A stretch of DNA of 50,700 nucleotides. It comes from Vulcanimicrobiota bacterium. GTDB lineage: Bacteria > Vulcanimicrobiota > Vulcanimicrobiia > Vulcanimicrobiales > Vulcanimicrobiaceae. The stretch covers positions 1 through 50,700 of the forward strand of contig JASHOM010000071.1 in NCBI GenBank assembly GCA_030041115.1, read 5' to 3'. Shown piece by piece: positions 18,137-37,947 of the stretch; position 1 is the stretch's first letter, and each line of letters opens with the position of its first letter. The notes beneath the pieces are model-generated. The model made no database searches and was not told where the DNA came from. It was given only the letters and a program-made list of their open reading frames with translations. Position numbers and translations under genes: made by a program.

Positions 18137-18171
18137 TGTATCGAGAGAGTTTCTCCTAGCGAGCGCCGTCG

Positions 18172-18219
18172 ACCTAGGAGCCATCATCCCTGCCTGGGCG
18201 CTCGCGAGCTCCATCGCGT
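18172..18219 (-). promoter_or_regulatory. fluoride riboswitch (crcB motif), copy A, upstream of Ehr1 operon
   Basis: Minus strand CGCGATGGAGCTCGCGAGCGCCCAGGCAGGGATGATGGCTCCTAG: P1 CGCG/CGCG, pseudoknot GGAGC/GCTCC, P3 CCC/GGG followed by ATGATGGC. Confidence 0.82.
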
Positions 18220-18229
18220 GTGATCAGGT

Positions 18230-21366: not shown

Positions 21367-22103
21367 GAACGGCCTCTTGCCGCCGCATACCCGAGCGCGA
21401 CCCAAAGACCGTGTAGAATGGTCAGGGGCGACGGCGGCGTCCCGGGGATGAACACGTCGACGGGCAGCACGTCGCTGACCGGACCCAAAACGGCGATGCT
21501 GCGCGAAAAGATGCCGCCCGAACATGCCGACGTTCCCAGCGCAACGACCAGCTTGGGCTGCGGCATGGCCTCGTGGGCCGCAAGCAACGGCTGGGCCATC
21601 GCCCGGGTGACGACCCCGGTGACCACGAGCACGTCGGCATGGCGAGGCGTCGCGGTCAGGAAAATTCCCAACCGGTTTGCATCGTAGAACGGGTTGAAGA
21701 TTGCTTGAAGCTCCTGCTCCTCCGAGCCGTCACTGCCGGCGTCGACGTGACGAAGATGAACGGAGCGGCCCAACCCGCGCACTCGTTCGCGCAGCAGGGA
21801 TCGCACCTCGTCCGGGTTGCCCGCCACTTCGGCCAACTCGAACTCGTTTCGCATGCCGAACGCCTCGGGCGACCGGCGCGCGCACTCCCCGCATTGAAAG
21901 CAACGCTTGCGATCGACGCGCGCTCGCGCGCCGGCCGCGGTGAGCGCGCTCGACAGGCAGGCGCCGGCACCGAGAGCCTGCGCTTCGACGTTCGCCGGCA
22001 GGCTCTCGACCGCGCCGCGATAGGCGGGCGCCATCGAATCGGCCCGCAGCGGGTAACGCGTGCTGAGGATGCCGCGACGCAGACTATATCCGATCCAACT
22101 CAT
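21363..22103 (-). CDS. Ehr2: NuoB/HyfI-like small subunit lacking the four NuoB-type cluster cysteines
   Basis: MSWIGYSLRRG...CFQCGEC...HVDAGSDGSEEQEL...NRLGIFLTATPRHADVLVVTGVVTRAMAQPLL...ALGTSACSGGIF...VFIPGTPPSP. Confidence 0.83.
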   Translation of the reverse strand: MSWIGYSLRRGILSTRYPLRADSMAPAYRGAVESLPANVEAQALGAGACLSSALTAAGARARVDRKRCFQCGECARRSPEAFGMRNEFELAEVAGNPDEVRSLLRERVRGLGRSVHLRHVDAGSDGSEEQELQAIFNPFYDANRLGIFLTATPRHADVLVVTGVVTRAMAQPLLAAHEAMPQPKLVVALGTSACSGGIFSRSIAVLGPVSDVLPVDVFIPGTPPSPLTILHGLWVALGYAAARGRS

Positions 22104-23464
22104 CGGTCGACCTCGGACTGGCTGGCGGCAAACGAGTGCTCGATGAAGGAAAAGTCGGTAAAGATATTTCCCGGTAACGACGGGACGAAGAGCGGCCAGT
22201 TCGCGTACGACGGCGGTCGAATCGCTACCCGCATCAGGCGGCCGCCCTCGATTCGAACGAAGTAGATGAGCTCGCCCTGGGGAGCCTCCACTCGCGCGAA
22301 TCCGCAGCCGTCGCGCGGCGCGGCCTTCGCGAGCCAATCGCCCGGCGGATTGGCGCTGAGCGCATTTCGAATCAGCTGAAACGAGCGCTGAATTTCGGCC
22401 GCCCGTACGAGTGCTCGCGCGGCGGCGTCGCCGTTGCTTTCCAGCACCTCTTCGCCGGTCAGCGGCGTGTAGAAGTAATCGTCCCCGGTGCGAGCGTCGC
22501 ACGAAACGCCGCTGCCGCGCGCGACCGGACCCACCGCGCCGAAGCGAACGACCTGCTCGTAGGTGAGCTTGCCGGCTCCAATCAAACGATCGAGCAAGGA
22601 CTGCGTCGAAACGAGAGTTTGCACGACGCTGCGCGCATGTCGTTCGACCTCTTCCAATTCCCGGTCGCATGCTTCGCGCAGCGACGCGAGCACGTCGAAG
22701 CGAGTGCCGCCGACGCAGCAAACGCCGCGGCCGAAACGATGCCCCGTCCCGGCGGCGAGCAGACGATGCACCCGTTCCTTCGCGGCAAACGTTTGCGCCG
22801 AGCCGACCGACAGCGAACCGTCGTCGGCAAGCTTTCCTAACGAGTCGAGATGCTGCGCTACGCGTTCGAGCTCGACGAGCACCGAGCGGGCGGCGCGGGC
22901 GCGCTCGGGCACGTGCACGTCGGCCACCGTTTCGACCGCCCGGCAAAACGCGGCGGCGTGACTGGAGGCGGTCGCCCCGGAAACGTGCTCGGCGACGAAC
23001 GGCGCCAGTTCGAGCTCGACGCCCACGAAACGTTCCTCCAACCCACGATGCTTGAAGAACATCGACGGCGCCACTTCGACGAAGGTCTCGCCCGCCGTGT
23101 CGATCGTCCAACGCGCCGACTCGACGATCCCGGAGCGGATCGGCCCGTACAACACGGTCGAGATTTCCGGCGACTCCCGCTTTCGCAGTTCGTCCGGCGG
23201 CTCGACGCGGACCAGCGGCCGGTCGTCGCTCAGGTTTTCGAACTCGAGTCCGAAACGGTCGCGTATCTCCCGCTCGTACCACTCCGCCGCGGGCGTCACC
23301 GGAGTCAACGATTGTACGCTGCCGGCCGCATCGCTGCCGACGTCAACGAGCGAAGCACCGTTGGCGAAAACGTAGTGCAGTCGCGTCTGCCGACCGATCC
23401 GGTCGGCGAATATCCAGGCTAATCGCTCGCCTCCGGCAACGCGGCTGCGCGCTTGCGCGCTCAT
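22100..23464 (-). CDS. Ehr2: NuoCD/HyfG-like large subunit without [NiFe] ligands
   Basis: ATG 23464; AEWYEREIRDRFGLEFENLSDDRPL (NuoC-like); L1 position EHVSGATASSHAAAFCRAVE; C-terminus DFSFIEHSFAASQSEVDR with no CxxC. Confidence 0.83.
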   Translation of the reverse strand: MSAQARSRVAGGERLAWIFADRIGRQTRLHYVFANGASLVDVGSDAAGSVQSLTPVTPAAEWYEREIRDRFGLEFENLSDDRPLVRVEPPDELRKRESPEISTVLYGPIRSGIVESARWTIDTAGETFVEVAPSMFFKHRGLEERFVGVELELAPFVAEHVSGATASSHAAAFCRAVETVADVHVPERARAARSVLVELERVAQHLDSLGKLADDGSLSVGSAQTFAAKERVHRLLAAGTGHRFGRGVCCVGGTRFDVLASLREACDRELEEVERHARSVVQTLVSTQSLLDRLIGAGKLTYEQVVRFGAVGPVARGSGVSCDARTGDDYFYTPLTGEEVLESNGDAAARALVRAAEIQRSFQLIRNALSANPPGDWLAKAAPRDGCGFARVEAPQGELIYFVRIEGGRLMRVAIRPPSYANWPLFVPSLPGNIFTDFSFIEHSFAASQSEVDR

Positions 23465-24906
23465 TGCCGCCCCGCAAAGATAGCCGCCGCGTTCGTCAGG
23501 AGAACCCGCAAGGGCGGCGGCACGAACAATCCGAGGCCGAGCACGACGGCAAATGCCAGAAACATCGAAGCGATCGCTCCGACGTCGCGCTCGCCGCACG
23601 GCATGTCCGCGGGCGGCGACCCGACGGTTACTCGCGTCGTCCAGCGCATCAGACCCGCAAATGCCGTAACGAGCAATCCCAGGACGACCGCCGCCACGAC
23701 CCATCTGCCGCTGTCGAAGCCGCCGGAGAGCACCATGAGTTCGCTGCGGAACAATCCGAAAGGCGGAAGTCCCGCGAGGGCGAGCCCCGCAAAGGCGAAG
23801 AGCGTTCCCGACGCCGGAAGCACCGCAACGCCCCCGCTGATCTTCGAGATCTCGCGCGTGTCGAAGCGCGCGGCGAGGCGCCCGGCTCCGAAGAACGCCA
23901 GCGCTTTGGTCGCGGCGTGATTGATCACGTGGAGCAATGCGCCGGTCACGGCGAGCCGGGCACCGAAGGCGAGGCCGCAGGCAATGAGCCCCATGTGCTC
24001 GATGCTCGAATAGGCGAGCATTCGTTTCAGATCGCGCTGCTGCAGCAGGAAGAACGCGCCGACGAAAAGCGAGAGCAGGCCGACGACGAAGAACAAGTGG
24101 AGCGTCAATCCGCTGCCGGCCGCGGCGTTCGCGATGGCGGCAAAACGAACGATGACGTACAAAGCATCGGATAGCAGCACGCCGGAGAGCATGGCGCTGG
24201 TGGGCGTCGGCCCGGCACCGTGGGCATCGGGAAGCCAGGTGTGCATGGGCGCCAAGCCGGCCTTGGTTCCGAAGCCGATGAGCGCCAGCATGAAGGCGAG
24301 CCGCACGGCGTCCTGATTCAGTTTGCCGGCAACGCTCATGTACGCGGTCCAGCTCGGCGCGTAGTGTGCCGGGAGGACCCCGGTTCCGGCCGCATACATC
24401 ACCACGACTCCGAGCAAGCCGATCGCCAACCCGCACGAAGCGATCAAGATGTACTTCCAGGCCGCTTCGAGCGCATTTTCGGTGCCCTGAAGCCGGACGA
24501 GAAGTGCGGCCACGATCGTGGTGACTTCGAGCGCGACCCACATGCCGGCCAGATTCGTCAGCAGCGGAACGACCGTTTCGGCGCATGCGAAGGCGTTCGT
24601 GAGCGCGAGAAATTCGCGACGGTACGCCTCGTCTCCGTCGACCCCTATCGCCTCGACGCGCACGTACCACGTGCCGTAGAGCCCGACGGTGCCGTAGACG
24701 ATCGCAACCGGCAGCAGAAAAACGGCCGAAAGCGCGTCGAGAGGCCCCGCACCCGCGGCGGTGCGCACGACGGCCGCCAGTATGCAACCGGCGGTGACGA
24801 GACCGCCGGCGGCCGTGCAGACGCGTCCTATGCGCGAGGGAACGAGCAGCGTCACGAACGCGAGCACGAGAGGAACGGCGATCGCCGTTGCGATGATTGC
24901 GTTCAT
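23461..24906 (-). CDS. Ehr2: NuoN/HyfF-like antiporter-type membrane subunit
   Basis: GFGTKAGLAPMHTWLPDAHGAGPTPTSAMLSGVLLSDALYVIVRF; YSSIEHMGLIACGLAFG. Confidence 0.87.
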   Translation of the reverse strand: MNAIIATAIAVPLVLAFVTLLVPSRIGRVCTAAGGLVTAGCILAAVVRTAAGAGPLDALSAVFLLPVAIVYGTVGLYGTWYVRVEAIGVDGDEAYRREFLALTNAFACAETVVPLLTNLAGMWVALEVTTIVAALLVRLQGTENALEAAWKYILIASCGLAIGLLGVVVMYAAGTGVLPAHYAPSWTAYMSVAGKLNQDAVRLAFMLALIGFGTKAGLAPMHTWLPDAHGAGPTPTSAMLSGVLLSDALYVIVRFAAIANAAAGSGLTLHLFFVVGLLSLFVGAFFLLQQRDLKRMLAYSSIEHMGLIACGLAFGARLAVTGALLHVINHAATKALAFFGAGRLAARFDTREISKISGGVAVLPASGTLFAFAGLALAGLPPFGLFRSELMVLSGGFDSGRWVVAAVVLGLLVTAFAGLMRWTTRVTVGSPPADMPCGERDVGAIASMFLAFAVVLGLGLFVPPPLRVLLTNAAAIFAGRQ

Positions 24907-25574
24907 CCGCGCAACCGTTGGAAGACGGCGATGCCGGCGGCGTCATGCCGCTCGACCAGCGCCCGCACGAGCACGCCGAAGACCACGACGGCAACGAGCG
25001 CGTCCAAGAGCAGCAACACGCCGATGATGAACGGCAGGCCCGGAGCCAAAGTAACGGTCCCGAAGAACAGTCCGTCCTCGAGCGTGAGGAAGGCGATGAC
25101 TTGGGCCAGCGCGTTGGGCCGCAAGATGGCGACGAGGAAGCCGACGAAGACCATCGACAGCGCCGTTGCCAAGTCGGCCTGCGGCAAAAATGCCCCTTGA
25201 TGAAGCGGAAGCTGAATCGAGGTCAGTACGGCCAGGCCGATGAGCGCGCCGGCGAGCAAAAGCGACGCGAGCACGTTGATTCGAGCGGGAAGCTCGACGC
25301 GCGACGATATGTTGCGAACCAGTCCTTGCATGTAACGCGGCAACAGCGTCCCCTTGAAAACGATGGTGAGAACGGCCAAGAGCAAGAGATCCCAGGCCCA
25401 TCCCTCCGTCACGCCCACTCCAAAGCAGATGGCGGCTACGAGCCACGCTTGAATCGCATACACGCGAATGAACTCGGCGATGACCATCGATCGAAAAAGC
25501 GAAAGCTGCACGAGCAGCAAGAGCATCGCTATGGTTCCGGCAAAGGCTTCCGGAACGGTCAGCTGGTGCAGCAT
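24903..25574 (-). CDS. Ehr2: HyfE-like membrane subunit
   Basis: Hydrophobic 223 aa; FLTLEDGLFFGTV near the conserved LEN position; ATGA overlaps on both sides. Confidence 0.78.
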   Translation of the reverse strand: MLHQLTVPEAFAGTIAMLLLLVQLSLFRSMVIAEFIRVYAIQAWLVAAICFGVGVTEGWAWDLLLLAVLTIVFKGTLLPRYMQGLVRNISSRVELPARINVLASLLLAGALIGLAVLTSIQLPLHQGAFLPQADLATALSMVFVGFLVAILRPNALAQVIAFLTLEDGLFFGTVTLAPGLPFIIGVLLLLDALVAVVVFGVLVRALVERHDAAGIAVFQRLRG

Positions 25575-26533
25575 CAGCCGACGCCCACGACATAGGCGAA
25601 GATGGCTATCAGCGCCACGAGAAGCCCGGTCCCGATGAATTCGGTGATCTTGTAAAGCCGCAGCTTGGCGAAGGTCGTCTCGATGGCGGCGACCACGACG
25701 CCCAGGGCCAGCATCTTCGCAAAAAGACTAACGATCGCGAATGCCACCGATGCCACGCTGCCGCTCGACGAAAGGCCCATCGGCAGCAGCAACACGTTGA
25801 GGAAGACGGTGTAAAGCAAGAACTGCTTCATCGAGCCGCCCCATTTGTAGAGCGCCATCCAGGGGCCCGAATGCTCGAAGAGCCGCGCGTCGTCGATCAT
25901 TCCGAACTCGATCGTCGCGGACGAGCTCTCGATCGGAATCCGTCCGGTGTCGACCAGCAGCATCATGAAAAAGGCGGCGGCGGCCAGAACGTGCGCGGGG
26001 CGCAGTACGTCGGCGGCGGAATGTCGCAACGCGGCGTTCAGTGCGTACGGCAGGTCGGTGCCGGTAATGAAAGCAACCGAAAAGAAGACGAAAATGAGCG
26101 TCGGCTCGACCAAGACGCCGACCATGACCGCGCGACTGCTGCCGATGTGTGCGTACTGCGAGCCGGAATCCAACGCCGCGAGCGCCGTCGCAAAGCCGGC
26201 GAGCGCCAGAACGAACGCGCCGCCGAGAATATCCCCGTAGGTCGCGCCCGGAAGCGGATACGTCGTAAGAACCGGAATGAGCGTTGCAACCGTCGCGTAG
26301 CAGCCGCACGCGACGAACGGCGCCGCTCGAAAAATCCAAGACGACGGTTCCGGAATGATCGCCTGCTTCCGAAAGAGCTTGAGGATGTCCCGGTACACCT
26401 GAAATATCGACGGCCCGTAACGCCCCTGAATTATCGCTTCGAGCCGAGCGATGCAGCCGGTAAGCAACGGCGAAAGCAGCAGCAGGCACAAAACCTGCGC
26501 GGCTTGGACCAAAATCGGACTTAGGGTTGCCAC
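25574..26533 (-). CDS. Ehr2: NuoH/HyfC-like membrane subunit
   Basis: GTG 26533; ARLEAIIQGRYGPSIFQVYRDILKLFRKQ; LLVDTGRIPIESSSATIEFGMIDD. Confidence 0.87.
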   Translation of the reverse strand: MATLSPILVQAAQVLCLLLLSPLLTGCIARLEAIIQGRYGPSIFQVYRDILKLFRKQAIIPEPSSWIFRAAPFVACGCYATVATLIPVLTTYPLPGATYGDILGGAFVLALAGFATALAALDSGSQYAHIGSSRAVMVGVLVEPTLIFVFFSVAFITGTDLPYALNAALRHSAADVLRPAHVLAAAAFFMMLLVDTGRIPIESSSATIEFGMIDDARLFEHSGPWMALYKWGGSMKQFLLYTVFLNVLLLPMGLSSSGSVASVAFAIVSLFAKMLALGVVVAAIETTFAKLRLYKITEFIGTGLLVALIAIFAYVVGVG

Positions 26534-26562: not shown

Positions 26563-26606
26563 CTTCACGAATGCTCCGACAAAAGCGGTTGCTTTGTCAG
26601 GAGCCA
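26563..26606 (-). promoter_or_regulatory. putative expression-platform hairpin of copy C
   Basis: Minus strand GCTCC-TGACAAAGC-AACC-GCTTTTGTC-GGAGC; its 5' arm is the aptamer pseudoknot strand. Confidence 0.6.
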
Positions 26607-26663
26607 TTGGCCTTTGCAGCAGTTTGCGCTGCCGAAAGCAGCTCCGGCGGACTCCTCCGCCGC
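26597..26663 (-). promoter_or_regulatory. divergent fluoride riboswitch (crcB motif), copy C, upstream of Ehr2 operon
   Basis: Minus strand GGCGGAGGAGTCCGCC ... AAAGGCCAATGGCTCCTG: P1 GGCGG/CCGCC, AGGAG/CTCCT pseudoknot; extra internal hairpin GCTGC-TTTCG-GCAGC; P3 not canonical. Confidence 0.6.
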
Positions 26664-26706
26664 TATTGCCTTTCGAGTGCTTTGCGAGCGATACCTTTGC
26701 AATCCG

Positions 26707-27009
26707 TCAACGTTTCGATCGCCGCGACCTCATTCCAAATCCAAGCATCAAGGACGCCATCGCCAACGCAAGCGGAACTTCTGCGATCAGGATAAAGCGC
26801 AGCAGCATCGCGTCGTGGCGTAAGGCTGCGCCGAATGCGATCCCGAGCAACATGAGGCCAAACGTGGAAATCGCTCGAACGGTAAGACGTCCGGCCGCGC
26901 GACCTCCGTCGAGATGCTTGCAGTCGGGTGCGTCGCACAGCTCCCAGCTATCGGGGCTTCGCAAATGCGGGCGCGGCGGCGTGACGCCGTGCAATGAGTC
27001 CTGCTTCAT
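26707..27009 (-). CDS. small membrane protein (~2 TM) preceded by fluoride riboswitch copy D
   Basis: SD GGAGGAATC-ATG; AISTFGLMLLGIAFGAAL and LLRFILIAEVPLALAMASLMLGFGMRSRR hydrophobic segments; not CrcB-like by eye. Confidence 0.7.
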   Translation of the reverse strand: MKQDSLHGVTPPRPHLRSPDSWELCDAPDCKHLDGGRAAGRLTVRAISTFGLMLLGIAFGAALRHDAMLLRFILIAEVPLALAMASLMLGFGMRSRRSKR

Positions 27010-27020
27010 GATTCCTCCAC

Positions 27021-27073
27021 GCAGGAGCCATCAGCCGCAGCCTGCGACCAATCACGGCGAGCCCCATCGCCCG
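27021..27073 (-). promoter_or_regulatory. fluoride riboswitch (crcB motif), copy D
   Basis: Minus strand GGGCGATGGGGCTCGCCGTGATTGGTCGCAGGCTGCGGCTGATGGCTCCTGCG: P1 GGCG/CGCC, pseudoknot GGGGC/GCTCC, P3 GTCGC/GCGGC. Confidence 0.87.
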
Positions 27074-27169
27074 ATCGGTCGCACTTCGCACAAGGTTGAG
27101 CGGGTCCTCTACGTAACGCCGCTTCGACGAACAGGTTTGCGCGATATCGACGCAAATATAAAGGACCGT

Positions 27170-27222
27170 ACGGCGATGGAGCTCGCCCGCGAGCGTCGCA
27201 AACCGGCGACTAACGGCTCCTG
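27170..27222 (+). promoter_or_regulatory. fluoride riboswitch (crcB motif), copy E, upstream of MutS-like pair
   Basis: CGGCGATGGAGCTCGCCCGCGAGCGTCGCAAACCGGCGACTAACGGCTCCTGG: P1 GGCG/CGCC, P3 GTCGC/GCGAC, pseudoknot GGAGC/GCTCC. Confidence 0.85.
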
Positions 27223-27241
27223 GATTACGGGGACACCATCG

Positions 27242-28771
27242 ATGACTTTCCACAGCATCCTTTACGACCGATCGGCTCCTGCGGTCGCCGACATGGGCGC
27301 GACGCCCGAGTGCATTCGCGACCTCAACATCGATCAGATCATCGATGCGATCGTGCGGGGAAGGGAGGAGTACGATCTCGCGCCCTTCTTTCTGATGCCG
27401 CTGGCCACGATGGAAGCCGTCGGCTACCGGCACGAAGTCATGCGCGATCTCCAAGAAGGCGCCGTGCTCGAGTGCGTCGCCGAGTTCGCCGATGCGATGC
27501 GATCGACGCGGAAGATCCTCGCGCACTCCGCCAAGCTCCGAACTCACCAACAGACGCGCTTGTTTCTCGATGCCGTGCGTGCGTACGACGCGGCCGTCGT
27601 TCGTTTGTGCGAGAAACTCGAGCGCTCCAGCGCCAAATCGGCGGGGCTTCGCGCTTTCTGTGCGTTCCTCGCCGCGTACGTGCAGTCCGAGCAATTTCGG
27701 GCTCGAACTTCGGCTTCCGGCGCGCTGCTCCGGGAGCTCGATGCGATTCGCTATTCCGTTCGCATCAAGGAAAACACCGTCACGGTGGGGCGCTACGAGG
27801 ACCGTCCCGACTATAGCGACGAGGTCGCGCGGACGTTCGAGAAATTCAATCAAGGGGAAGTGCGCGACTACCTCGTCGCCGGCCGCGATTCCATCGAGAT
27901 GAATCACGTCGAGGAACGCATCCTCGCGCTGGTGGCGCGGCTGTTTCCGGCGACGTTTGCGAAATTGACGGAATTCGAAGAGCATCATCGCAGTTTCGTC
28001 GACGCGACCGTGACGCGGTTCGACCGCGAGATACAATTCTACCTCGCGTACCTCGAATACATGAACGAATTTGCGGCCTCGGGCTTGTCGTTTTGTTATC
28101 CGCACGTCTCGACCGACGGCGGCGACAGCGCCGTTCGGGACACCTTCGATGCGGCTCTCGCCAAGAGGCTGCGCGACGCCGGGCGTGAGGTCGTGGTCAA
28201 CGACTTCGCACTGACCGGCGGGGAACGCGTCCTCATCGTATCGGGGCCGAACCAAGGGGGCAAGAGCACCTTCGCTCGCACGTTCGGTCAGGTGCACCAT
28301 TTTGCAAGCATCGGTTGCCCGGTCGCAGGCAGCGCGGCGCGGATCGCCCTGTTCGACCGGATCTTCACGCATTTCGAGCGGGAGGAGCGGGTCGAAAGCC
28401 TTCGCAGCAAGCTGGAGGACGATCTGCTCCGGATGCGCGACATTTTGCGCGACGCAAGCGAACGCAGCATCGTCATCTTGAATGAAATCTTTGCATCGAC
28501 GACGCGCAGCGACGCCTATTGGCTCGGACGGCAGATGCTGGCCAAGATCTTGAGGATCGGAGCGCGTTGCGTCTGCGTTACGTTCCTCAACGAGCTGGCG
28601 CACGGAGACGATCGGATCGTCAACATGGTGAGCACGGTGGTTGCGGACAACCCCGCTGTGCGAACGTTCAAGGTGGTCCGGCGCGCCGCGGGCGAACCTT
28701 CGTATGCCGCCACGCTCGCGGAAAAGCACCGGCTGACGCACGATTTGGTAAAAGCTAGAATACGATCATGA
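27242..28771 (+). CDS. MutS-like ATPase (MutS domain V type), first of pair
   Basis: ATG 27242 (MTFHSILYD); Walker A GPNQGGKSTFARTFGQ, Walker B SIVILNEIFASTTRSD. Confidence 0.88.
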   Translation: MTFHSILYDRSAPAVADMGATPECIRDLNIDQIIDAIVRGREEYDLAPFFLMPLATMEAVGYRHEVMRDLQEGAVLECVAEFADAMRSTRKILAHSAKLRTHQQTRLFLDAVRAYDAAVVRLCEKLERSSAKSAGLRAFCAFLAAYVQSEQFRARTSASGALLRELDAIRYSVRIKENTVTVGRYEDRPDYSDEVARTFEKFNQGEVRDYLVAGRDSIEMNHVEERILALVARLFPATFAKLTEFEEHHRSFVDATVTRFDREIQFYLAYLEYMNEFAASGLSFCYPHVSTDGGDSAVRDTFDAALAKRLRDAGREVVVNDFALTGGERVLIVSGPNQGGKSTFARTFGQVHHFASIGCPVAGSAARIALFDRIFTHFEREERVESLRSKLEDDLLRMRDILRDASERSIVILNEIFASTTRSDAYWLGRQMLAKILRIGARCVCVTFLNELAHGDDRIVNMVSTVVADNPAVRTFKVVRRAAGEPSYAATLAEKHRLTHDLVKARIRS

Positions 28772-30294
28772 CGCTCAAGGCGCACCTGATGTACGCCGAC
28801 CGCGATTTTTCATTTCGCAGCGTCGTGCCGATCACCGAGGGCGAGGTCGCTGCGGATCTCGAGCGAGATGCGCTCGTCTCGGCGATGGCCGCCGGCGATC
28901 CCGTCGTTGCGGAAGTCGCGACCGAGGCGCTCTGGAACGGCCTGACCGATTTGGCCGCGATCCGGTACCGTCAAGCTGCGCTCGGCGACGCCGTCGCGAA
29001 TTCCGCCGCGGTTCGAGAGCTGTACGAACTTGCCGTCGAGGCGCTCGAAGCCGAACGCCGCGCGTTTCTGCTCGGGCTCGTCGGGCGAACGCCGGGCTCG
29101 GTACTCTTCCGGGCGGTGGAGCTGCTCGAATTATTGGAGGAGCGGCTGCGCCGGCTACGGGCCTTCGCCGACAAAAATGCGGCCCGGTTCGGGTCGGTTG
29201 CCTTCACCAATTTGTTCGACATGCTCCGGCGCGAGCTCGGCGACGATTACCTGGGAATCGTTCGAGAGCACTTGGGAGACTTGCGATTTACCGACGGCGT
29301 GTTGTCGAGCGCGCGCTTGGGTCCCGGCAACAAGGGAGTGGACTACGAGCTTCACCGCATCGTCCAGTCGGAGGGCTGGCTTCGCCGCGCGTTTGGGGCC
29401 CGCGGGCAGCAGGCGTATTCGTTTAGGATTCCGGATCAGGACGAGGGCGGCGCGCGCGCGCTGGCAGCCCTCAAGGATCGAGGAATAGCGCGCGTCGCCG
29501 ACGCGCTCGCGCGCTCGATGGATCACATCCTGTCGTTCTTCAAGATGCTCAGGACGGAGCTCGCCTTCTACGTCGGATGCCTCAACATCCGCGAAGCGCT
29601 CGCCGCGGCGGGCGCACCGGCCTGCACGCCTACGCCGTGCTCCGCGGCCGACGCAAAGCGCAACGCCACCGGACTCTACGATCCGTCGCTGGCGCTGACC
29701 CTGGGACGCTCCGTCGTGCGAAACGATCTCGCGGCCGACGGTAAGGCGCTCGTGCTCGTCACCGGAGCAAATCGCGGCGGGAAATCGACGTTTTTGCGCA
29801 GCCTCGGGCTTGCCCAGCTAATGATGCAGTGCGGAATGTTCGTCGCGGCCGAACGCTTCGAGGCCAGCGTCTGCCGGGGAGTCTTCACGCACTACAAACG
29901 TCAGGAAGACCCGACGATGCAAAGCGGTAAATTCGACGAAGAGCTCGTTCGAATGAGCGCGATCGTCGATGCCGTGGTGCCGGGTTCGCTCGTGCTCCTC
30001 AACGAGTCCTTCGCCGCGACCGACGAACGCGAAGGCGCGGAGATCGCTCATCAGGTCGTCACCGGGCTGATCGATTGCGGCGTCATCGCGTGCTTCGTAA
30101 CGCATCAGTACGAACTAGCCGAACGCTTCATGACCGAGGGCCGCACGGACGTCCTCTTCCTGTTGGCCGAGCGGCGAGACGACGGATCGCGCACGTTCCG
30201 AATCAAACCCGGACGCCCGCTGGAGACGAGCTACGGCAAAGACATTTACGATCGCATCTTCGACGACGCCGGCGCGACGACGGTCCCGCCCTGA
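28768..30294 (+). CDS. MutS-like ATPase, second of pair
   Basis: ATGA overlap with the first; Walker A GANRGGKSTFLRSLGLAQLMMQCGMFV, Walker B GSLVLLNESFAATDEREGAEI, CFVTHQYELA. Confidence 0.88.
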   Translation: MTLKAHLMYADRDFSFRSVVPITEGEVAADLERDALVSAMAAGDPVVAEVATEALWNGLTDLAAIRYRQAALGDAVANSAAVRELYELAVEALEAERRAFLLGLVGRTPGSVLFRAVELLELLEERLRRLRAFADKNAARFGSVAFTNLFDMLRRELGDDYLGIVREHLGDLRFTDGVLSSARLGPGNKGVDYELHRIVQSEGWLRRAFGARGQQAYSFRIPDQDEGGARALAALKDRGIARVADALARSMDHILSFFKMLRTELAFYVGCLNIREALAAAGAPACTPTPCSAADAKRNATGLYDPSLALTLGRSVVRNDLAADGKALVLVTGANRGGKSTFLRSLGLAQLMMQCGMFVAAERFEASVCRGVFTHYKRQEDPTMQSGKFDEELVRMSAIVDAVVPGSLVLLNESFAATDEREGAEIAHQVVTGLIDCGVIACFVTHQYELAERFMTEGRTDVLFLLAERRDDGSRTFRIKPGRPLETSYGKDIYDRIFDDAGATTVPP

Positions 30295-30908
30295 CTTCGT
30301 CCGATCGCAGCGGCCCGGCGTACCGCGATCGAGGTCCGCGCAAGACTGACCGCGCCGCGACCGATCAAGCTGCGCATCGCGCGCTCGACGTGCTCCACCA
30401 GCGCCGAGCGCAAGCGCTGCTCGAGCTCGGCGATCCATCCGTCGATCTCCGCAAAGGAGCAGGCCGCGTCCGGAAGGATCTCCCGCTCGTCGTCCACCTC
30501 TATCCGCGGCAACGCAATTCTTCGCGGCGGGCGGGGCGGCTTCGCGAGATCGCCGGCTCCTTGCGCGGCGGCTCGGACGAAGCGCTCCTGCGCTGCGAGC
30601 AAGGCTTCCGCATAGAATCCAAAGCGCGCCCGGAACCGCACGCCGGCATTTTCGAACGCCATCTGAGCGCAACGCATGGCCACCAGCTCCGAATGGCTGC
30701 GGGTCAGAGCCGCGCTCAAGTCCGGAGCGAGCGTGCCCAGCGAGAGGAAATGGTCCGCGAGCTCTTCGCGCGCCCGCCGCACGGGCTTCGCAACGAAACG
30801 ATCGAGCGTCGAAAGATCGGTTCGACAGCCGGACTCGAGCACCACGCGCGCCGCGGCTTCATCGTCGCGAAGGATCTGCCAGGCGGCGTTGACACGGTCA
30901 GCCGTCAT
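30246..30908 (-). CDS. helical hypothetical protein, second gene under riboswitch copy B
   Basis: 220 aa; ATG 30908 overlaps the upstream gene end by 11 nt; convergent with MutS-like 2 (49-nt overlap). Confidence 0.65.
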   Translation of the reverse strand: MTADRVNAAWQILRDDEAAARVVLESGCRTDLSTLDRFVAKPVRRAREELADHFLSLGTLAPDLSAALTRSHSELVAMRCAQMAFENAGVRFRARFGFYAEALLAAQERFVRAAAQGAGDLAKPPRPPRRIALPRIEVDDEREILPDAACSFAEIDGWIAELEQRLRSALVEHVERAMRSLIGRGAVSLARTSIAVRRAAAIGRSQGGTVVAPASSKMRS

Positions 30909-31230
30909 CGAGAACGATCGCCGCGTCGTCGAAGAACAGGTCCTCTACGGTTTCGTGCTGACGCAAGCGAGTTTTGAGCTCGGCAATTCGCGCTTGCAGC
31001 TCCTTGGCCCGGCCCAAAATGACCTCGCGGCCGGCAAAGGCGCCCGCGTTGCGCATGCGCTCCGTTTTGAGCTTGCGCATCGATTCCTGGAGCTCGAAAT
31101 GCTCGCTGGCATAATGGCGCTCGATTTCGTAAAGCCTGCCGCTGCGCTCTTGGAGTTTCTCGTTCGCCCACTGCAGCCGAGCCTCGAGATCTCGGCAACG
31201 CTCCTGCAGTTCGGCGACTTGATCGGCCAC
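30898..31230 (-). CDS. coiled-coil protein, first gene under riboswitch copy B
   Basis: GTG 31230; MADQVAELQERCRDLEARLQWANEKLQERSGRLYEIERHYASEHFELQESMRKLK heptad-rich. Confidence 0.65.
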   Translation of the reverse strand: MADQVAELQERCRDLEARLQWANEKLQERSGRLYEIERHYASEHFELQESMRKLKTERMRNAGAFAGREVILGRAKELQARIAELKTRLRQHETVEDLFFDDAAIVLDDG

Positions 31231-31248
31231 GACCTAACCTCACTCTCG

Positions 31249-31299
31249 TTGAGGAGCCATCAGCCTTTTTGGCGCTTGTTCGGCGAGCTCCATCGCCCT
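31249..31299 (-). promoter_or_regulatory. fluoride riboswitch (crcB motif), copy B, upstream of coiled-coil pair
   Basis: Minus strand AGGGCGATGGAGCTCGCCGAACAAGCGCCAAAAAGGCTGATGGCTCCTCAA: P1 GGCG/CGCC, P3 GCC-AAAAA-GGC, pseudoknot GGAGC/GCTCC; very close to the canonical aptamer. Confidence 0.9.
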
Positions 31300-31361
31300 C
31301 GGAAACGTTGCTTCGCGGAGGAATAGAGAACGATCCTGCGAATTTCGTTCGTGTTAGTTTA

Positions 31362-31446
31362 CGGGCGATGGAGCGCCGCCTTCGACCGCCGCGTCAGAAG
31401 CGTCGTCCCCGACGGGACGATGCGGCGATGCGGCTAATGGCTCCTT
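31362..31446 (+). promoter_or_regulatory. fluoride riboswitch (crcB motif) with extended P3, copy F, upstream of NUDIX-dynamin operon
   Basis: CGGGCGATGGAGCGCCGCC ... CGCCGC[GTCAG...CCCGACGGGACGAT]GCGGCGATGCGGCTAATGGCTCCT: P1, long P3, GGAGC/GCTCC pseudoknot. Confidence 0.78.
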
Positions 31447-31475
31447 TCTCGAGATGCGATCTTGGGAGGAACCTT

Positions 31476-31937
31476 TTGAATCAATACGTGGTTCGGATCA
31501 GCGCGGCGATTCTACGCCCCGGTGACGAGGTATTGGTGGTTCGACAGTTGGATCGCGGTCTCGAACGCATCAACCTCCCGGGCGGGATGGCGCATTTCAA
31601 CGAGTCGCTGAAGGAGGCACTCGTGCGCGAAGTTCGCGAGGAGACCGGCTTCGAGGTCGTTCCGACCGAGATCGCATTCGTTGCGGAGGGGTACAACGAC
31701 CGGTGGCCCGATCCCACTTTGGAAATCTGTTTCTACGCGACGGCCGTACGGCAGATCGAGCCGCCCGACCGGATGGGCGAGCAAATTCTTTCCGTCGAAT
31801 GGGTCGCGTTGGACGACCCGCGGCTTCTGCGCTCCGCCCCGCAGGCCGAGAATTTTCGAATTAGCAAGCGCGGTCTTTACGTCGACCAAACGAGCGCGAC
31901 CGCGCGCAAGATCAAGAAACGCTCCAAGCAATCATGA
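31476..31937 (+). CDS. NUDIX hydrolase
   Basis: TTG start with SD GGGAGGA; GGMAHFNESLKEALVREVREETGFEV matches the Nudix box pattern GX5EX7REUXEEXGU. Confidence 0.92.
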   Translation: MNQYVVRISAAILRPGDEVLVVRQLDRGLERINLPGGMAHFNESLKEALVREVREETGFEVVPTEIAFVAEGYNDRWPDPTLEICFYATAVRQIEPPDRMGEQILSVEWVALDDPRLLRSAPQAENFRISKRGLYVDQTSATARKIKKRSKQS

Positions 31938-33634
31938 TCGAATCCGCCCTCGAGCGAATCCAAGCCCTCGCCGAGTGGGTCGGTGACGCGACCGCCGCGG
32001 GACTCGCTCGCGAACTTTCCGAACAAATACCTCGCGGCGAGCTGAACCTGCTCGTGCTCGGGCAATTCAAGCGCGGGAAGAGCTCGCTGGTCAACGCGTT
32101 GCTCGGCGACGACGTCATGCCGACCGGAGCCTTGCCGCTCACCGGCGTCACGACGACCATACGATACGGCGACGAAGGGCGGATCGAAGTTTCGCTCGGA
32201 AGCTCGCCGCAAAAACGGCTGATCGCCGTGGACGAGTTGCCGAACTACGTCACCGAAAAATGCAATCCCGCGAACCGGCTCGGCGTCGAGCGCGTGGAGA
32301 TTCTTTGGCCTTCGGAAAGGATTCGCGGCTTCGCGCTCTTCGACACGCCGGGCATCGGTTCGACATACGCTCACAATACCGCCGCCGCTCACGCCGCCTT
32401 GCCCCGCGCCGACGTGGCCGTGCTGGTCGTCGGCCCGGAGCCCCCGATCGGAGCGGAGGAGCTGCAATACGCGCGCGACGTGATCTCTTCGTCCGAACGG
32501 CTTTTCGTCGTGCTCAACAAGAGCGACATTGCAGGCGAGGCTTTGCCCGAGATCCTGAGCTTCACGCGAGATGCCCTGCGCAACGTGCTTGGACCGGACA
32601 ACGAGGTCGACGTCGTGCCGCTCAGCGTGACTCGAGCCCGCGAAGCCCAGCGCGACGGACGCCGAGACTCGGCTTTCGAATCGTTCGTCGAGTCGCTGCG
32701 CCGGCTTGCGGATCACCAAGGCGATGCGGTGCGCGAGCAGTCAACTCGGCGGCGCGCGGTCGCAATCGTCGAGCGGCTCGATGCGCTCGCGGCAATGCGA
32801 GTGGCCGCACTGGAACTTCCGCGCGAGGAACGAGAACGGCGCAAAGCGATGATGGAAGGCGCTTTGCAGCTCATTGCCGACCGTGCCCGCGCGCTCGAGC
32901 TGGTCGTCGACGATGACGTGAATCGCCTAAGCCAAGAGATGGAGGCGGAGTTCGGACGGTGGTACGACCGCGATGTGCCGCTTCTTCGCGCGATGGCGGC
33001 GGAGCTGTCCGAAGAGTCGTCGTCCGAACGCCGCACGGAGCGCTTGGAGAGCGCGATCGCCGCGCGAGCGTCGGCTTGGCGTCAAGCCGCCGTCGAAGAT
33101 GCGACCGCTCAACTGAACGCGCACGCGGCCAAGTACGGACGTCTTCTCGGCGAGATCGAAACGTCGGCGCTCCAGACCGGATGCGAAATATTACGCATCG
33201 ATGCCGGCTCCCTCATCGCCCGCAACATCGAGTTTTCGCCTGCGAAGCTCGATCTGGCCACATCGGTCATGCCGACGACCGGCTTGGAGATCGTCGTCAC
33301 CGCGGCACTTCAAGCGCTGCCGGGGCCGCTTCGCAAGCCGTTGCTCAAACGGCGCTACGACGACGTGCTGGCACGCGAGCTCGACGCTCTGCGCGGAAGG
33401 TTGCGCTATGGCGTCGCACGCGATCTCGAGCCGTGGCGAAAATCGGTGCGCGCCAAGATCGTCTCGTCGATCGAGTCGATCCGTCACGCGATCCTTGCCG
33501 GGTTCACCAGCGCCGGCGAACCGTCCGACCCCGAAGCGCCCGAGCTCGAACGAGCGAGAGGGCTTCGGCGGGAGCTCCACGATTTACGCTCGACGTTGGC
33601 GACACGCGAGGAGACGAACGCGCTGGCTCCGTAG
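31934..33634 (+). CDS. dynamin-like GTPase
   Basis: ATGA overlap with nudix gene; P-loop GQFKRGKSSLVNALLG, switch TGVTTT, G3 DTPGIGS, G4 NKSD. Confidence 0.9.
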   Translation: MIESALERIQALAEWVGDATAAGLARELSEQIPRGELNLLVLGQFKRGKSSLVNALLGDDVMPTGALPLTGVTTTIRYGDEGRIEVSLGSSPQKRLIAVDELPNYVTEKCNPANRLGVERVEILWPSERIRGFALFDTPGIGSTYAHNTAAAHAALPRADVAVLVVGPEPPIGAEELQYARDVISSSERLFVVLNKSDIAGEALPEILSFTRDALRNVLGPDNEVDVVPLSVTRAREAQRDGRRDSAFESFVESLRRLADHQGDAVREQSTRRRAVAIVERLDALAAMRVAALELPREERERRKAMMEGALQLIADRARALELVVDDDVNRLSQEMEAEFGRWYDRDVPLLRAMAAELSEESSSERRTERLESAIAARASAWRQAAVEDATAQLNAHAAKYGRLLGEIETSALQTGCEILRIDAGSLIARNIEFSPAKLDLATSVMPTTGLEIVVTAALQALPGPLRKPLLKRRYDDVLARELDALRGRLRYGVARDLEPWRKSVRAKIVSSIESIRHAILAGFTSAGEPSDPEAPELERARGLRRELHDLRSTLATREETNALAP

Positions 33635-33706
33635 GGTCTACCCCAAAATGAGGGCAGCTGGCTGAAAGCCGGACTTTATTTAACCGATCCGTTCGCCTAT
33701 CTGGGG

Positions 33707-35824
33707 ATGCATTCCGGCGACGACGGCATCGTCGTGCGTGCCTCGCTGCCCCACGCCGCGCGCGCCTTCGTGCGCGAACGCGGTGCCGCAACGCTCGCCG
33801 AGATGCGCCGGGTCGACGGCGAGGGTCTCTTCGAGCTTCGCATGCCCGAGCGACGCGAGGCCTTCGACTACGTGCTTGCGCTCGAGAATGCCGGCGGCAA
33901 CGAGGAGATCGAAGACGCCTATCGCTTCGGTCCCATTCTCGGCGACGTCGACGTCTATCTCATCGCCGAGGGCACGCACCTGCGCCTGTGGGACGTGCTC
34001 GGCTCGCACGTTCGCACGATCGACGGCGTTTCCGGCGTAACTTTTGCGCTGTGGGCACCGAACGCGCAGCGAGTCAGCGTCGTCGGCGATTTCAACGGTT
34101 GGGACGGCCGGCGTCATCCGATGCGCAAACGCGTGGAGTGCGGAGTTTGGGAGATCTTCGTTCCGGCGGCGAGCGAAGGAGCGCGTTACAAGTACGAAAT
34201 CCTGGGCGCTCGCGGCGATCTGCTGCCGCTCAAAGCCGATCCGCTCGCGCGCCACGCGGAGGTGCGGCCCGCAAACGCCTCGATCGTGTGGAAGGAAAGC
34301 GCGCCGCCGTGGCACGACGACTCCTGGATGCGCGAGCGGCACGAGCGCAATCGCCGCGATGCTCCCATCTCGATCTACGAGGTGCATCCGGGCTCCTGGC
34401 GCCGGCACGGCGACGGACGTGTCTTGAACTACCGCGAACTCGCCGGCCGGCTTCTGCCGTACGTTTGCGAGATGGGCTTTACGCACGTCGAGCTGCTGCC
34501 CATCACGGAGCATCCGTTCGACGGGTCGTGGGGTTATCAGCCGACCGGGATGTTCGCGCCGACAAGCCGCTACGGAACGCCCGATGACTTCCGTGCGTTC
34601 GTCGAGCGCGCGCACGAACTGAAGATCGGCGTGATCCTCGATTGGGTACCCGGTCATTTTCCCGACGATCCGCACGGTCTGGCCTTCTTCGACGGAACGC
34701 ATCTCTACGAGCACGGGGACCCGCGTCAAGGCTTCGCTCCCGATTGGAACACGCTGATCTACAACTACGGACGGCGGGAGGTCGCAAATTTCTTGCTTGC
34801 AAGCGCGCTCTACTGGCTCGAGGAGTTCCACGCCGACGGCTTGCGGGTCGACGCGGTCGCCTCCATGCTCTATCTCGACTACAGCCGCCGCCCCGGCGAA
34901 TGGGTGCCCAACGCAGCCGGCGGCAACGAGAACCTCGAGGCAATCGCGTTTCTGCGGCGCCTGAACGAAACGCTCTACGGACGTTACGACGGCAGCGTGA
35001 CGATTGCCGAAGAATCGACGGCGTGGCCGATGGTCTCGATGCCGGTGAGCGACGGCGGCCTGGGCTTCGGTTATAAATGGAACATGGGCTGGATGCACGA
35101 CACCCTCGAGTATTTCGGCTACGATCCCCTCTACCGGCGCTACCATCAAAACCGCTTGACCTTCGGGCTCGTCTACGCCTACAGCGAGAACTACGTTCTC
35201 CCGCTCTCACACGACGAAGTGGTCCACGCAAAGCGCTCGCTGCTGCTCAAGATGCCCGGCGACCGCTGGCAGCGTTTCGCAAACCTACGCCTGCTCCTCG
35301 CCTTGACCTTCACGCACCCCGGAAAGAAGTTGCTCTTCATGGGCAGCGAACTCGCCCCCGAGTCCGAATGGAACCATGACGCGCAGCTCGATTGGAGCAT
35401 CCTCGCCGACCCACAGCACTCCGGGGTGAAACGCTTGGTGCGCGATTGCAACGCGCTGTACGTCAGCTCGCCGGCGCTCTACCGCCTCGACGCGCAGCCG
35501 CCGGGTTTCGAATGGATCGACTTTGCCGACGCCATTCAAAGCGTACTCGCCTTTGCGCGCAAAGGCATCAATGAAGCCGACGGCCTATTCGTGGTGGCGA
35601 TCAACGCCACTCCCGTCGTCCATCACGGCTATCGCATCGGCGCACCGCGCCCCGGCGTCTATCGCGAGGCGCTCAACACCGATTCGCAATACTACGGCGG
35701 CAGCAACGTCGGAAACTGCGGTCTGATCGAAACGCGGCCGATCGCGTCGCACGGCCGCCCGCACTCACTGACGCTGACGCTGCCTCCGCTGGCGGCGGTC
35801 GTGCTTTCCCTCGGGACGCCGTGA
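33707..35824 (+). CDS. glgB: 1,4-alpha-glucan branching enzyme
   Basis: TFALWAPNAQRVSVVGDFNGWDGRRHPM, GTWRR-like SWRRHGDGR, SWGYQPTGMFAPTSRYGTPDDFRAFV, DGLRVDAVASMLYLDYSR. Upstream in-frame TDPFAYLGMH suggests the true start may be slightly earlier. Confidence 0.95.
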   Translation: MHSGDDGIVVRASLPHAARAFVRERGAATLAEMRRVDGEGLFELRMPERREAFDYVLALENAGGNEEIEDAYRFGPILGDVDVYLIAEGTHLRLWDVLGSHVRTIDGVSGVTFALWAPNAQRVSVVGDFNGWDGRRHPMRKRVECGVWEIFVPAASEGARYKYEILGARGDLLPLKADPLARHAEVRPANASIVWKESAPPWHDDSWMRERHERNRRDAPISIYEVHPGSWRRHGDGRVLNYRELAGRLLPYVCEMGFTHVELLPITEHPFDGSWGYQPTGMFAPTSRYGTPDDFRAFVERAHELKIGVILDWVPGHFPDDPHGLAFFDGTHLYEHGDPRQGFAPDWNTLIYNYGRREVANFLLASALYWLEEFHADGLRVDAVASMLYLDYSRRPGEWVPNAAGGNENLEAIAFLRRLNETLYGRYDGSVTIAEESTAWPMVSMPVSDGGLGFGYKWNMGWMHDTLEYFGYDPLYRRYHQNRLTFGLVYAYSENYVLPLSHDEVVHAKRSLLLKMPGDRWQRFANLRLLLALTFTHPGKKLLFMGSELAPESEWNHDAQLDWSILADPQHSGVKRLVRDCNALYVSSPALYRLDAQPPGFEWIDFADAIQSVLAFARKGINEADGLFVVAINATPVVHHGYRIGAPRPGVYREALNTDSQYYGGSNVGNCGLIETRPIASHGRPHSLTLTLPPLAAVVLSLGTP

Positions 35825-37947
35825 AACGCGCGGCGGTGCTGCCGGGGCGGCCCTACCCGCTGGGCGCGACCTGGAACGGCGCCGGCGTAAACTTTGCGCT
35901 GTTCTCCGCGCACGCCGAAAAAGTCGAGCTCTGCCTCTTCGATCCGCGCGGCCGGCGCGAGGTGCAACGCATCGTTCTCCCCGAGTATACGGATTTGGTC
36001 TGGCACGGTTATCTCCCGGATGCGCGGCCGGGCCTGCTCTACGGATACCGGGTGTACGGGCCCTACGATCCCGCAAACGGACACCGGTTCAACCATCACA
36101 AGTTGCTGATCGATCCGTATGCAGCGATGATCGCAGGCACGCTGCAGTGGAGCGACGCGCAGTTCGGCTACCGGATCGGCTCGCCGCGCGGCGATCTCTC
36201 CTTCGACCGGCGCGACGACGCCGCGGGAATGCCGAAGTGCGTCGTCGTCGATACCGCGTTCACCTGGGGAAATGACCGGCTTCTCCACACGCGCTGGCAC
36301 GAGCTGATCGTTTACGAGCTGCACGTGCGCGGCTTCACCATGAAACATCCCGGAATACCGGCGAATCTCCGAGGAACGGTCGCGGGCCTCTCGTCGCCGG
36401 CGGCAATCGAGCATCTGACCCGACTCGGCGTCACCGCGGTCGAGCTGCTCCCGGTCAACTACTTCGCCGACGACCGGCATCTCGTCGAGCGCGGCTTGCG
36501 CAATTATTGGGGTTACAGCCCGATTTCTTTTTTCGCCCCGCAACCGCGTTACCTCGCCGAGCCGAATCTCGGCGAATTCAAAACGATGGTGTCACGCTTG
36601 CACGATGCCGGAGTCGAGGTCATCCTCGACGTCGTGTTCAATCATACGGCCGAGGGAAACGAGCTCGGACCGACGCTAAGTTTGCGGGGCATCGACAACA
36701 AATCGTACTACGCGCTCGCCGAAGACCCGCGCTACTACCTCGATTACACGGGATGCGGAAACTCGCTCGACTTCGATCGCGCACACGTGCTCGCCCTCGT
36801 CACCGATGCGCTGCGCTACTGGGTTCGCGAGATGCACGTCGACGGTTTCCGCTTCGATCTCGCGACGACGCTCGCCCGTCGCGACGGGCGGTTCACGACG
36901 CACGGCAACTTCCTCACCGCCGTCGCCGCGGATCCGGCGCTCTCTCGAGTCAAGCTCATCGCCGAGCCGTGGGACCTTGGCCCCGACGGCTATCGCGCCG
37001 GCGATTTTCCGGCGGGATGGTCGGAGTGGAACGATCGTTTCCGCGACGGCGTCCGGCGCTTTTGGCGCGGCGACGGCAGCACGCCCGACATGGCGACGCG
37101 GCTGACCGGTTCGAGCGATCTCTTCGATCGCCGCGGCCGGCGCCCGCGCGCGAGCTTGAACTTCGTCACCGCGCACGACGGACTCACGCTGACCGACCTC
37201 GTCTCGTACGACGGCAAGCACAACGAGGCGAACCTCGATGACAATCGGGACGGAATTCAAGAGAACTTTAGCTGGAACTGCGGCGTCGAAGGGGAGACGC
37301 TCGACCCGCAGATTCTCGCCCTGCGAGGCAAACAGCGGCGTAACTTTTTGGCGACGCTGCTCCTGTCACAAGGCACACCGATGCTGCTGGCCGGCGACGA
37401 GTTGGCCCGGACCCAGCACGGAAACAACAACGCGTACTGCCAGGACAACGAGCTGAGCTGGGTCGATTGGTCGTCGACGAGCGACGCTCACGACGGCGCG
37501 CTGATCGAATACGTGCGGGAGCTCATCGCCTTGCGGCGCGCACATCCGGTCTTCCGGCGCCCGCGGTTCTTCCGCGGCGTCGAGGCGGAGCCGTCGCCCC
37601 TCAAGGACATCACCTGGTTTGCGCCCGACGGTCGCGAAATGACTCGCGACGACTGGAACGACGGCGGACGCCGCTGCTTCGGCGCGCTGCTCGGCGGCGA
37701 CGTCGGCGATCGTTTCATCAGTCTCCAAGGCTATCCCGAGCTCGACGACAGCTTCTTGATGATCCTCAACGCCCACGCGACGTCGGTCGAGTTCGTCCTG
37801 CCTCTGATTGCGCCGGTACGCCGCTGGACGCATCTGCTCGATACGGCGCGCTTGGGCGCAACGCCGAGGCTGCCGATCGCGCCGGGTTCGCGGCTGACGG
37901 TCGCGGATCATTCGTTCTCGCTCTTCGCCGGACGGCTGACGGAGTGA
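35821..37947 (+). CDS. glgX: glycogen debranching enzyme GlgX/TreX type
   Basis: PYPLGATWNGAGVNFALFSAHAEKVELCLFD, GLRNYWGYSPISFFAPQPRYL, DGFRFDLATTLARR, GDELARTQHGNNNAYCQDNELSWVDW. Confidence 0.95.
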   Translation: MKRAAVLPGRPYPLGATWNGAGVNFALFSAHAEKVELCLFDPRGRREVQRIVLPEYTDLVWHGYLPDARPGLLYGYRVYGPYDPANGHRFNHHKLLIDPYAAMIAGTLQWSDAQFGYRIGSPRGDLSFDRRDDAAGMPKCVVVDTAFTWGNDRLLHTRWHELIVYELHVRGFTMKHPGIPANLRGTVAGLSSPAAIEHLTRLGVTAVELLPVNYFADDRHLVERGLRNYWGYSPISFFAPQPRYLAEPNLGEFKTMVSRLHDAGVEVILDVVFNHTAEGNELGPTLSLRGIDNKSYYALAEDPRYYLDYTGCGNSLDFDRAHVLALVTDALRYWVREMHVDGFRFDLATTLARRDGRFTTHGNFLTAVAADPALSRVKLIAEPWDLGPDGYRAGDFPAGWSEWNDRFRDGVRRFWRGDGSTPDMATRLTGSSDLFDRRGRRPRASLNFVTAHDGLTLTDLVSYDGKHNEANLDDNRDGIQENFSWNCGVEGETLDPQILALRGKQRRNFLATLLLSQGTPMLLAGDELARTQHGNNNAYCQDNELSWVDWSSTSDAHDGALIEYVRELIALRRAHPVFRRPRFFRGVEAEPSPLKDITWFAPDGREMTRDDWNDGGRRCFGALLGGDVGDRFISLQGYPELDDSFLMILNAHATSVEFVLPLIAPVRRWTHLLDTARLGATPRLPIAPGSRLTVADHSFSLFAGRLTE

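Follow-up and report, generated by a model that had tools for sequence, protein, structure and literature searches.

The contig JASHOM010000071.1 of a Vulcanimicrobiota bacterium (assembly GCA_030041115.1), analysed here from position 1 to 50,700 (the window below), carries two adjacent genes for MutS-like ATPases, A and B, downstream of a candidate fluoride riboswitch (Table 1). The 3′ end of A and the start of B share an ATGA overlap. A first-pass annotation, made from the letters alone, had described this coupled pair, and both open reading frames (ORFs), the overlap and the two Walker A motifs read exactly as it gave them. The host genome (2.6 Mb in 222 contigs, 95% complete) encodes elsewhere a MutS1-type protein, a MutS2-type protein (L002 in our locus numbering), a third MutS-like protein and MutL, so A and B are extra to the MutS-type genes that the host already has.

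Table 1. Genes, ATPase motifs and fluoride-aptamer sites of the window (R1, our own covariance model, described in the text)
Feature	Position	Strand	Details
MutS-like protein A gene	27242..28771	+	ATG start; 509 aa + stop; core/lever-clamp-ATPase, without domains I/II
A Walker A, GPNQGGKST, residues 335-343	28244..28270	+	GPNxGGK invariant in 86 A proteins
A Walker B Asn-Glu, N414-E415 (Asp to Asn)	28481..28486	+	100% of 86 A
A F448 at H-loop His position (VTF)	28583..28585	+	100% of 86 A
MutS-like protein B gene	28768..30294	+	ATG start; 508 aa + stop; architecture as A
B Walker A, GANRGGKST, residues 333-341	29764..29790	+	GANxGGK invariant in 79 B proteins
B Walker B Asn-Glu, N412-E413	30001..30006	+	Asn 98%, Glu 100% of 79 B
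B H-loop His H446, kept	30103..30105	+	98% of 79 B
Candidate aptamer leading the A-B pair	27169..27222 (Rfam alignment 27163-27229)	+	RF01734 22.9 bits, E=0.041; under gathering score 34
Riboswitch leading 100-aa ORF 26707-27009 (-), divergent from the pair	27015..27080	-	Rfam 32.2 bits, E=3.8e-5; R1 48 bits (training set)
Weak aptamer candidate before HyfC-like gene 25574-26533 (-)	26591..26670	-	Rfam 20.5 bits, E=0.25; R1 18 bits
Riboswitch leading coiled-coil gene 30898-31230 (-) and unknown gene 30246-30908 (-)	31244..31306	-	Rfam 39.4 bits, above gathering
Riboswitch leading NUDIX 31476-31937, dynamin-like GTPase 31934-33634 and GlgB/GlgX-type genes	31355..31453	+	Rfam 28.6 bits, E=5.7e-4; genes from Pfam
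Riboswitch upstream of formate-hydrogenlyase-like membrane genes	18168..18227	-	Rfam 26.2 bits, E=0.0033; R1 44.5 bits (training set)

Pfam finds MutS_V as the sole MutS domain of both proteins (A, 73.4 bits, E = 3e–20; B, 73.9 bits, E = 2.1e–20; cut-off 30.2). The same search gave no match to MutS_I, II, III or IV, hence no complete MutS1 architecture, and none to KOW or Smr; both proteins finish at the ATPase domain. AlphaFold2 models, built on our own alignments of 60 (A) and 62 (B) orthologs, are confident, with a mean predicted local distance difference test score of 87.5 for A and 85.3 for B. They match solved structures of MutS, MSH2, MSH3, MSH6 and MutS2 over almost their full length (best Z ∼28–30), the alignments beginning near position 260 of the E. 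coli protein. Among the closest folds are the MutS2 cores 9a5o (Z ∼28) and 7vuk_B (for A, Z 28.5, 417 aligned residues, root-mean-square deviation 5.1; for B, Z 27.6, 357 aligned, 4.2). According to these models A and B are each a MutS core, made of core/lever, clamp and ATPase, minus the mismatch-binding and connector domains. The absence of a mismatch-binding N-terminal domain had been anticipated by the first-pass annotation, which spoke of domain-V-type ATPases; MutS_V is indeed there in both, but the N-terminal half has the MutS core/lever fold, so that the term is too narrow.

In a tree of ATPase domains all A proteins form one group and all B proteins another, and the two jointly stand apart from 46 MutS1, MutS2 and other MutS domains (Shimodaira–Hasegawa-like approximate likelihood ratio test 98); this is a quick tree with long stems, and A and B can be called sisters only tentatively. 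They make up a lineage of their own, neither MutS1 nor MutS2, and their catalytic motifs are changed. Three memberships in described families were considered and rejected. Classical MutS1 is ruled out by the missing domains I and II, and the MutS1 model TIGR01070 (cut-off 641.7 bits) gives 68.8 bits for A and 62.3 for B, in the ATPase domain only. MutS2, whole or truncated, is ruled out by the separate clade and the lack of KOW and Smr, TIGR01069 (cut-off 400 bits) giving 63.3 and 68.7 bits. KamB/KamC membership fails as well: KamC resembles A and B as a short MutS-like ATPase (∼508 aa) whose model, NF052383, matches their ATPase domain, but the similarity is confined to that domain and lies far under the cut-off of 300 bits (A, 37.7; B, 67.9), and the gene context differs. 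All 62 B proteins compared match this model, though as distant relatives only (best E = 1e–23), and a near-cut-off KamC-like protein, L125, sits in a glycine-cleavage context with DE in its Walker B.

Compared with the general pattern of MutS-superfamily ABC ATPases, A and B have domain V with a GxNxGGKS/T Walker A and lack the Walker B Asp-Glu, which all 46 compared non-A/B MutS domains (MutS1, MutS2, other) carry, two of them having been misread by the automatic motif search. The catalytic Glu is kept throughout both families (86 A and 79 B proteins), and it is the preceding Asp that has become Asn. The H-loop status of the two is complementary: A has lost the His, replaced by Phe, and B retains it. 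A D693N variant of E. coli MutS has a crystal structure (3k0s).

B lies directly downstream of A on the same strand in all 87 distinct loci with room for it (the count omits L079, at a contig end, and L045 and L052, copies of L037 and L039). The trees of A and B are correlated (mirror-tree r 0.87 over 77 pairs), and this is a sign of co-inheritance, not of contact. The first-pass annotation had raised the possibility of a heterodimer, which the constant adjacency, the mirror-tree correlation and the complementary H-loops make plausible; on such sequence grounds A and B probably do form one.

When each species was represented by a single genome, our scan turned up at least 543 relatives. The best 80 show 41–58% identity and are spread over about twenty phyla, with Bathyarchaeota, Thermoplasmata and Woesearchaeota among them; of the records that bear a name, ‘Candidatus Eremiobacterota’ (L045) is the nearest. 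A is present in 10 of the 61 genomes searched of the host's family and in 1 of 5,426 E. coli genomes. The A tree divides several phyla into multiple parts, a pattern compatible with frequent transfer, and A also occurs on 45 plasmids (21 typed as conjugative), among them plasmids of Klebsiella, Citrobacter, Enterobacter, Burkholderia and Rhodococcus. Most of the listed records are annotated as DNA mismatch repair protein MutS or hypothetical protein, and the E. coli record as MutS-related protein.

The candidate aptamer lies 20 nt upstream of A. It has the pseudoknot GAUGGAGC/GCUCC, and in the two nearest orthologous loci (L036/L037) an aptamer lies at the matching distance (–69 versus –70). 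The riboswitch that the first-pass annotation had placed before the pair is present as to site and pseudoknot, but its Rfam score stays below the gathering threshold. It scores 49.6 bits with R1, a covariance model that we made from 20 sites, most of them upstream of A; this aptamer, however, belongs to the training set, and R1 scores are partly circular. RNA folding of the region gave z –1.0, an uninformative measure for a pseudoknotted aptamer, and a promoter/terminator scan found nothing near the riboswitch.

Stronger evidence for fluoride control comes from relatives. R1 finds a sense-strand site at most 500 bp before the A start in 61 of 87 eligible loci (median distance 109 bp), where about 2 would be expected at the rate seen in the rest of those loci; several other loci have a site further up the operon. 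Since R1 was partly trained on sites upstream of A, we re-tested with Rfam's own model 19 loci chosen among the R1-positive ones, plus five plasmids. An above-cut-off site before A was found in 15 of the 19, and on plasmids of Burkholderia cenocepacia and Mycobacterium branderi the riboswitch lies directly before A; Enterobacteriaceae plasmids have the order riboswitch-antiporter-usp-A-B. In the host's family, four or more fluoride riboswitches occur in all 10 A-bearing genomes versus 1 of 51 others (Fisher test, P-value = 1.2e–10). Riboswitch-led A proteins include ones from different phyla that are close to 50% identical. The fluoride control proposed from the sequence of this one locus is therefore well supported comparatively, and it appears nearly certain that A and B are a fluoride-induced obligate pair.

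Neighbour families were defined as clusters of ORFs around A, several named by Pfam and others recognised from sequence. A dynamin-like GTPase is found in 27 of the 87 loci (riboswitch-led in 14, directly upstream of A in 5), enolase in 21 (11 riboswitch-led), MFS transporters in 19, formate-hydrogenlyase-like subunits in 10–17, CrcB in 12, a Na/H exchanger in 8 (6 riboswitch-led), CLC in 7 (5), pyrophosphatase in 7 (4) and USP in 6; NUDIX proteins and phosphatases also recur. Together these neighbours make a coherent set of fluoride targets and exporters, and the pair sits in fluoride-resistance islands. It adjoins a DHHA2 phosphatase (ppaC)-usp-eno-gpmA-crcB set on plasmids of Citrobacter and, partly, of Enterobacter; the genes of the E. 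cloacae GI3 operon correspond to this set. That operon confers experimentally proven fluoride resistance (PMC5533749).

Mismatch repair is very likely not the task of A and B, because both lack the domains that read mismatches, and in 5 of 38 pair hosts MutL does not reach the cut-off. It is present in the other 33; the five are two actinobacterial metagenome-assembled genomes (MAGs; 6.7–7.0 Mb), a Bathyarchaeon, a Woesearchaeon and one Chloroflexi, and gaps are possible in those hosts that are MAGs. With MutS1, MSH2-MSH6 and MSH2-MSH3 the pair shares the core and ATPase fold, and the eukaryotic ones are heterodimeric, as A-B probably is, but A and B differ by lacking the mismatch-binding and connector domains, by living in some hosts whose MutL is below the cut-off and by their fluoride riboswitch control. 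Pfam, structural alignment and tree agree here with the first-pass annotation, which had doubted that these are classical mismatch-repair proteins.

What the pair does once fluoride is present is best explained, tentatively and short of conviction, by a fluoride-induced obligate heterodimer that remodels fluoride-jammed complexes. In this reading A and B would join as subunits into an asymmetric and obligate MutS-core ATPase, made when the fluoride riboswitch is switched on, whose lever/clamp would open and close driven by ATP. Such cycling would take apart or reset fluoride-jammed complexes; its targets would be enzymes or nucleoside triphosphatases (NTPases) caught in a dead-end form with Mg-F or nucleotide-metal-fluoride. 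We judge this the most likely reading because fluoride-inhibited enzymes (enolase, pyrophosphatase and others) recur as neighbours. The Walker-B Asp contributes to Mg2+ holding, and its loss, we infer, would blunt metal-fluoride trapping: the change to Asn would weaken Mg2+ coordination and may keep A-B cycling in fluoride. A fluoride-hardened ATP site in this sense is a doubtful proposition, and it is quite unlikely that the pair amounts to the first ATP-driven machine for the repair of fluoride damage, a MutS-derived heterodimer whose ATP site evolved, through both Asp-to-Asn changes, to resist fluoride. Remodelling of protein or ribonucleoprotein (RNP) targets jammed by fluoride is a possibility suggested by analogy. 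MutS2, which has neither domain I nor domain II, hydrolyses ATP to split ribosomes that have stalled in B. subtilis (PMC10897456), and the title of NF052383 describes MutS-like KamC as a lysine 5,6-aminomutase reactivase ATPase.

Several points weigh against a remodelling heterodimer. The pair has no one target gene as its constant neighbour, and in 10 loci without an R1 match, rescanned with filters off, there was no convincing sense-strand site before A. The reactivase role of KamC is known from the NCBI model name alone. The published gene table of GI3 differs from the plasmid islands in having no MutS gene (PMC5533749); GI3 is resistant with no such pair listed, so that resistance does not require the pair, which would add to fluoride tolerance instead of being its basis. 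The Walker-B change could mean a slow or regulatory ATPase instead. Clamp charge, from a crude cut, did not separate protein from DNA binding (median +0.5 for A and +4 for B, roughly 0 to +4 for other MutS).

Next in our ranking, and unlikely, is a heterodimer directed at DNA, which would clamp branched or damaged DNA so as to protect or channel it where fluoride interferes with replication or repair. MSH4-MSH5 is a eukaryotic, DNA-directed recombination clamp of heterodimeric MutS cores that has no mismatch-binding domain I and does not read mismatches, and A-B can be likened to it in having paired cores without mismatch reading, although MSH4-MSH5 is eukaryotic. Fold and ATPase of A and B are closest to MutS/MSH proteins, among which DNA-acting heterodimers exist, but the ATP-site motifs are altered in both subunits, the A clamp has no clear positive charge (a weak argument), no DNA-repair gene is among the recurrent neighbours in the 87 loci, and the five hosts with MutL below the cut-off count against this reading too. 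DNA damage was also the guess of Weinberg et al. in 2010, who saw mutS genes behind the crcB motif and noted them as DNA repair (PMC2864571); these are very probably the same genes as ours, and the crcB-mutS association that the first-pass annotation called known is the one described there.

Ranked third, and improbable, is rescue of ribosomes or RNPs, in which A-B would do specifically under fluoride what MutS2 does, splitting ribosomes that metal-fluoride-locked GTPases or energy depletion have brought to a halt. The ribosome splitting of MutS2, its place among the closest folds (7vuk, 9a5o) and the core/lever, clamp and ABC ATPase fold that it shares with A and B, together with the absence of domains I and II, speak for it. 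The pair, however, has neither KOW nor Smr, which recruit MutS2 to collided ribosomes, and it consists of two genes where MutS2 is a single homodimer gene; it has Asn in Walker B, A lacks the H-loop His, the clade is separate, and the host already has a MutS2-type gene. A regulatory or scaffold ATPase, a slow nucleotide switch gating partners such as the dynamin-like GTPase or a membrane complex, is improbable too: it would suit the Asp-to-Asn change in both proteins, the lost His of A and the 27 loci with a dynamin-like gene, in 5 of which it directly precedes A, but Walker A and the catalytic Glu are invariant in both, B keeps its H-loop His, and the available flanking DNA is free of dynamin-like genes in 60 of the 87 loci. 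Finally, the patchy, mobile distribution, conjugative plasmids included, might be that of a passenger that hitch-hikes on fluoride islands and has no fluoride role, which we consider very improbable, as the riboswitches lead the pair itself in most loci, also before proteins of close to 50% identity in different phyla, and the paired gene order is strongly conserved.

The link between mutS and the fluoride riboswitch was published in 2010, and public annotation continues to name these proteins ‘DNA mismatch repair protein MutS’. A review of fluoride resistance from 2024 (PMC11139923) makes no mention of MutS. In the literature searched we did not find the obligate two-gene family, its fold, its separation from MutS1 and MutS2, the motif changes or its presence on conjugative plasmids. 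With a separate, paired MutS-core family of altered ATP-site motifs, found in fluoride islands and also on conjugative plasmids whose bacterial hosts are easy to handle, the puzzle of that link becomes testable. If remodelling is true, cells would hold an active cure for fluoride-jammed machinery, beyond ion export and over-production of targets.

The other riboswitch sites that the first-pass annotation had seen in the window are real. A relaxed Rfam scan gives six fluoride-aptamer sites, one above the gathering score; R1 recovers five of the six at E < 1e–8 and finds only one further site in the 2.6-Mb genome. The strongest of the window leads a coiled-coil protein and an unknown protein; a similar coiled coil, with no Pfam family, occurs in six related loci. 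The 100-aa protein encoded divergently from the pair has a membrane-like C-terminus and no Pfam match. HyfC-like genes, which in the window follow the weak candidate, are riboswitch-led in 12 of 12 A loci. The window's hydrogenase-large-subunit-like protein (22103-23482, –) reads, by eye, HVSGATASSH at the CxxC nickel motif of hydrogenases, so that the ‘formate hydrogenlyase’ of this fluoride-led cluster may be an ion-pumping complex of the Ehr-like kind and not a hydrogenase.

At 31476-37947 (+), genes for NUDIX, dynamin, GlgB and GlgX-type proteins stand closely spaced on one strand behind one riboswitch, an arrangement that suggests that glycogen metabolism is fluoride-regulated in the host. 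The literature searched held no description of fluoride-regulated dynamins, of which the gene at 31934-33634 (+) is the window's example.

CrcB/Fluc (PF02537) and CLC (PF00654) were not found in the 95%-complete host genome despite its six fluoride riboswitch matches; the exporter is missing, in an assembly gap or of another kind. The sixth match, outside the window (L147:1189-3789, contig C132 of the host genome), stands before the genes of an ABC transporter (SBP_bac_11 binding protein, permease and ATPase), next to which a histidine phosphatase gene runs divergently. For a genome without known exporters, a binding-protein transporter led by a fluoride riboswitch is odd. Elsewhere among the A loci, L103, L122, L068, L051, L044 and L081 each hold seven to ten fluoride aptamers within ∼20 kb and are predicted to be very dense fluoride regulons.

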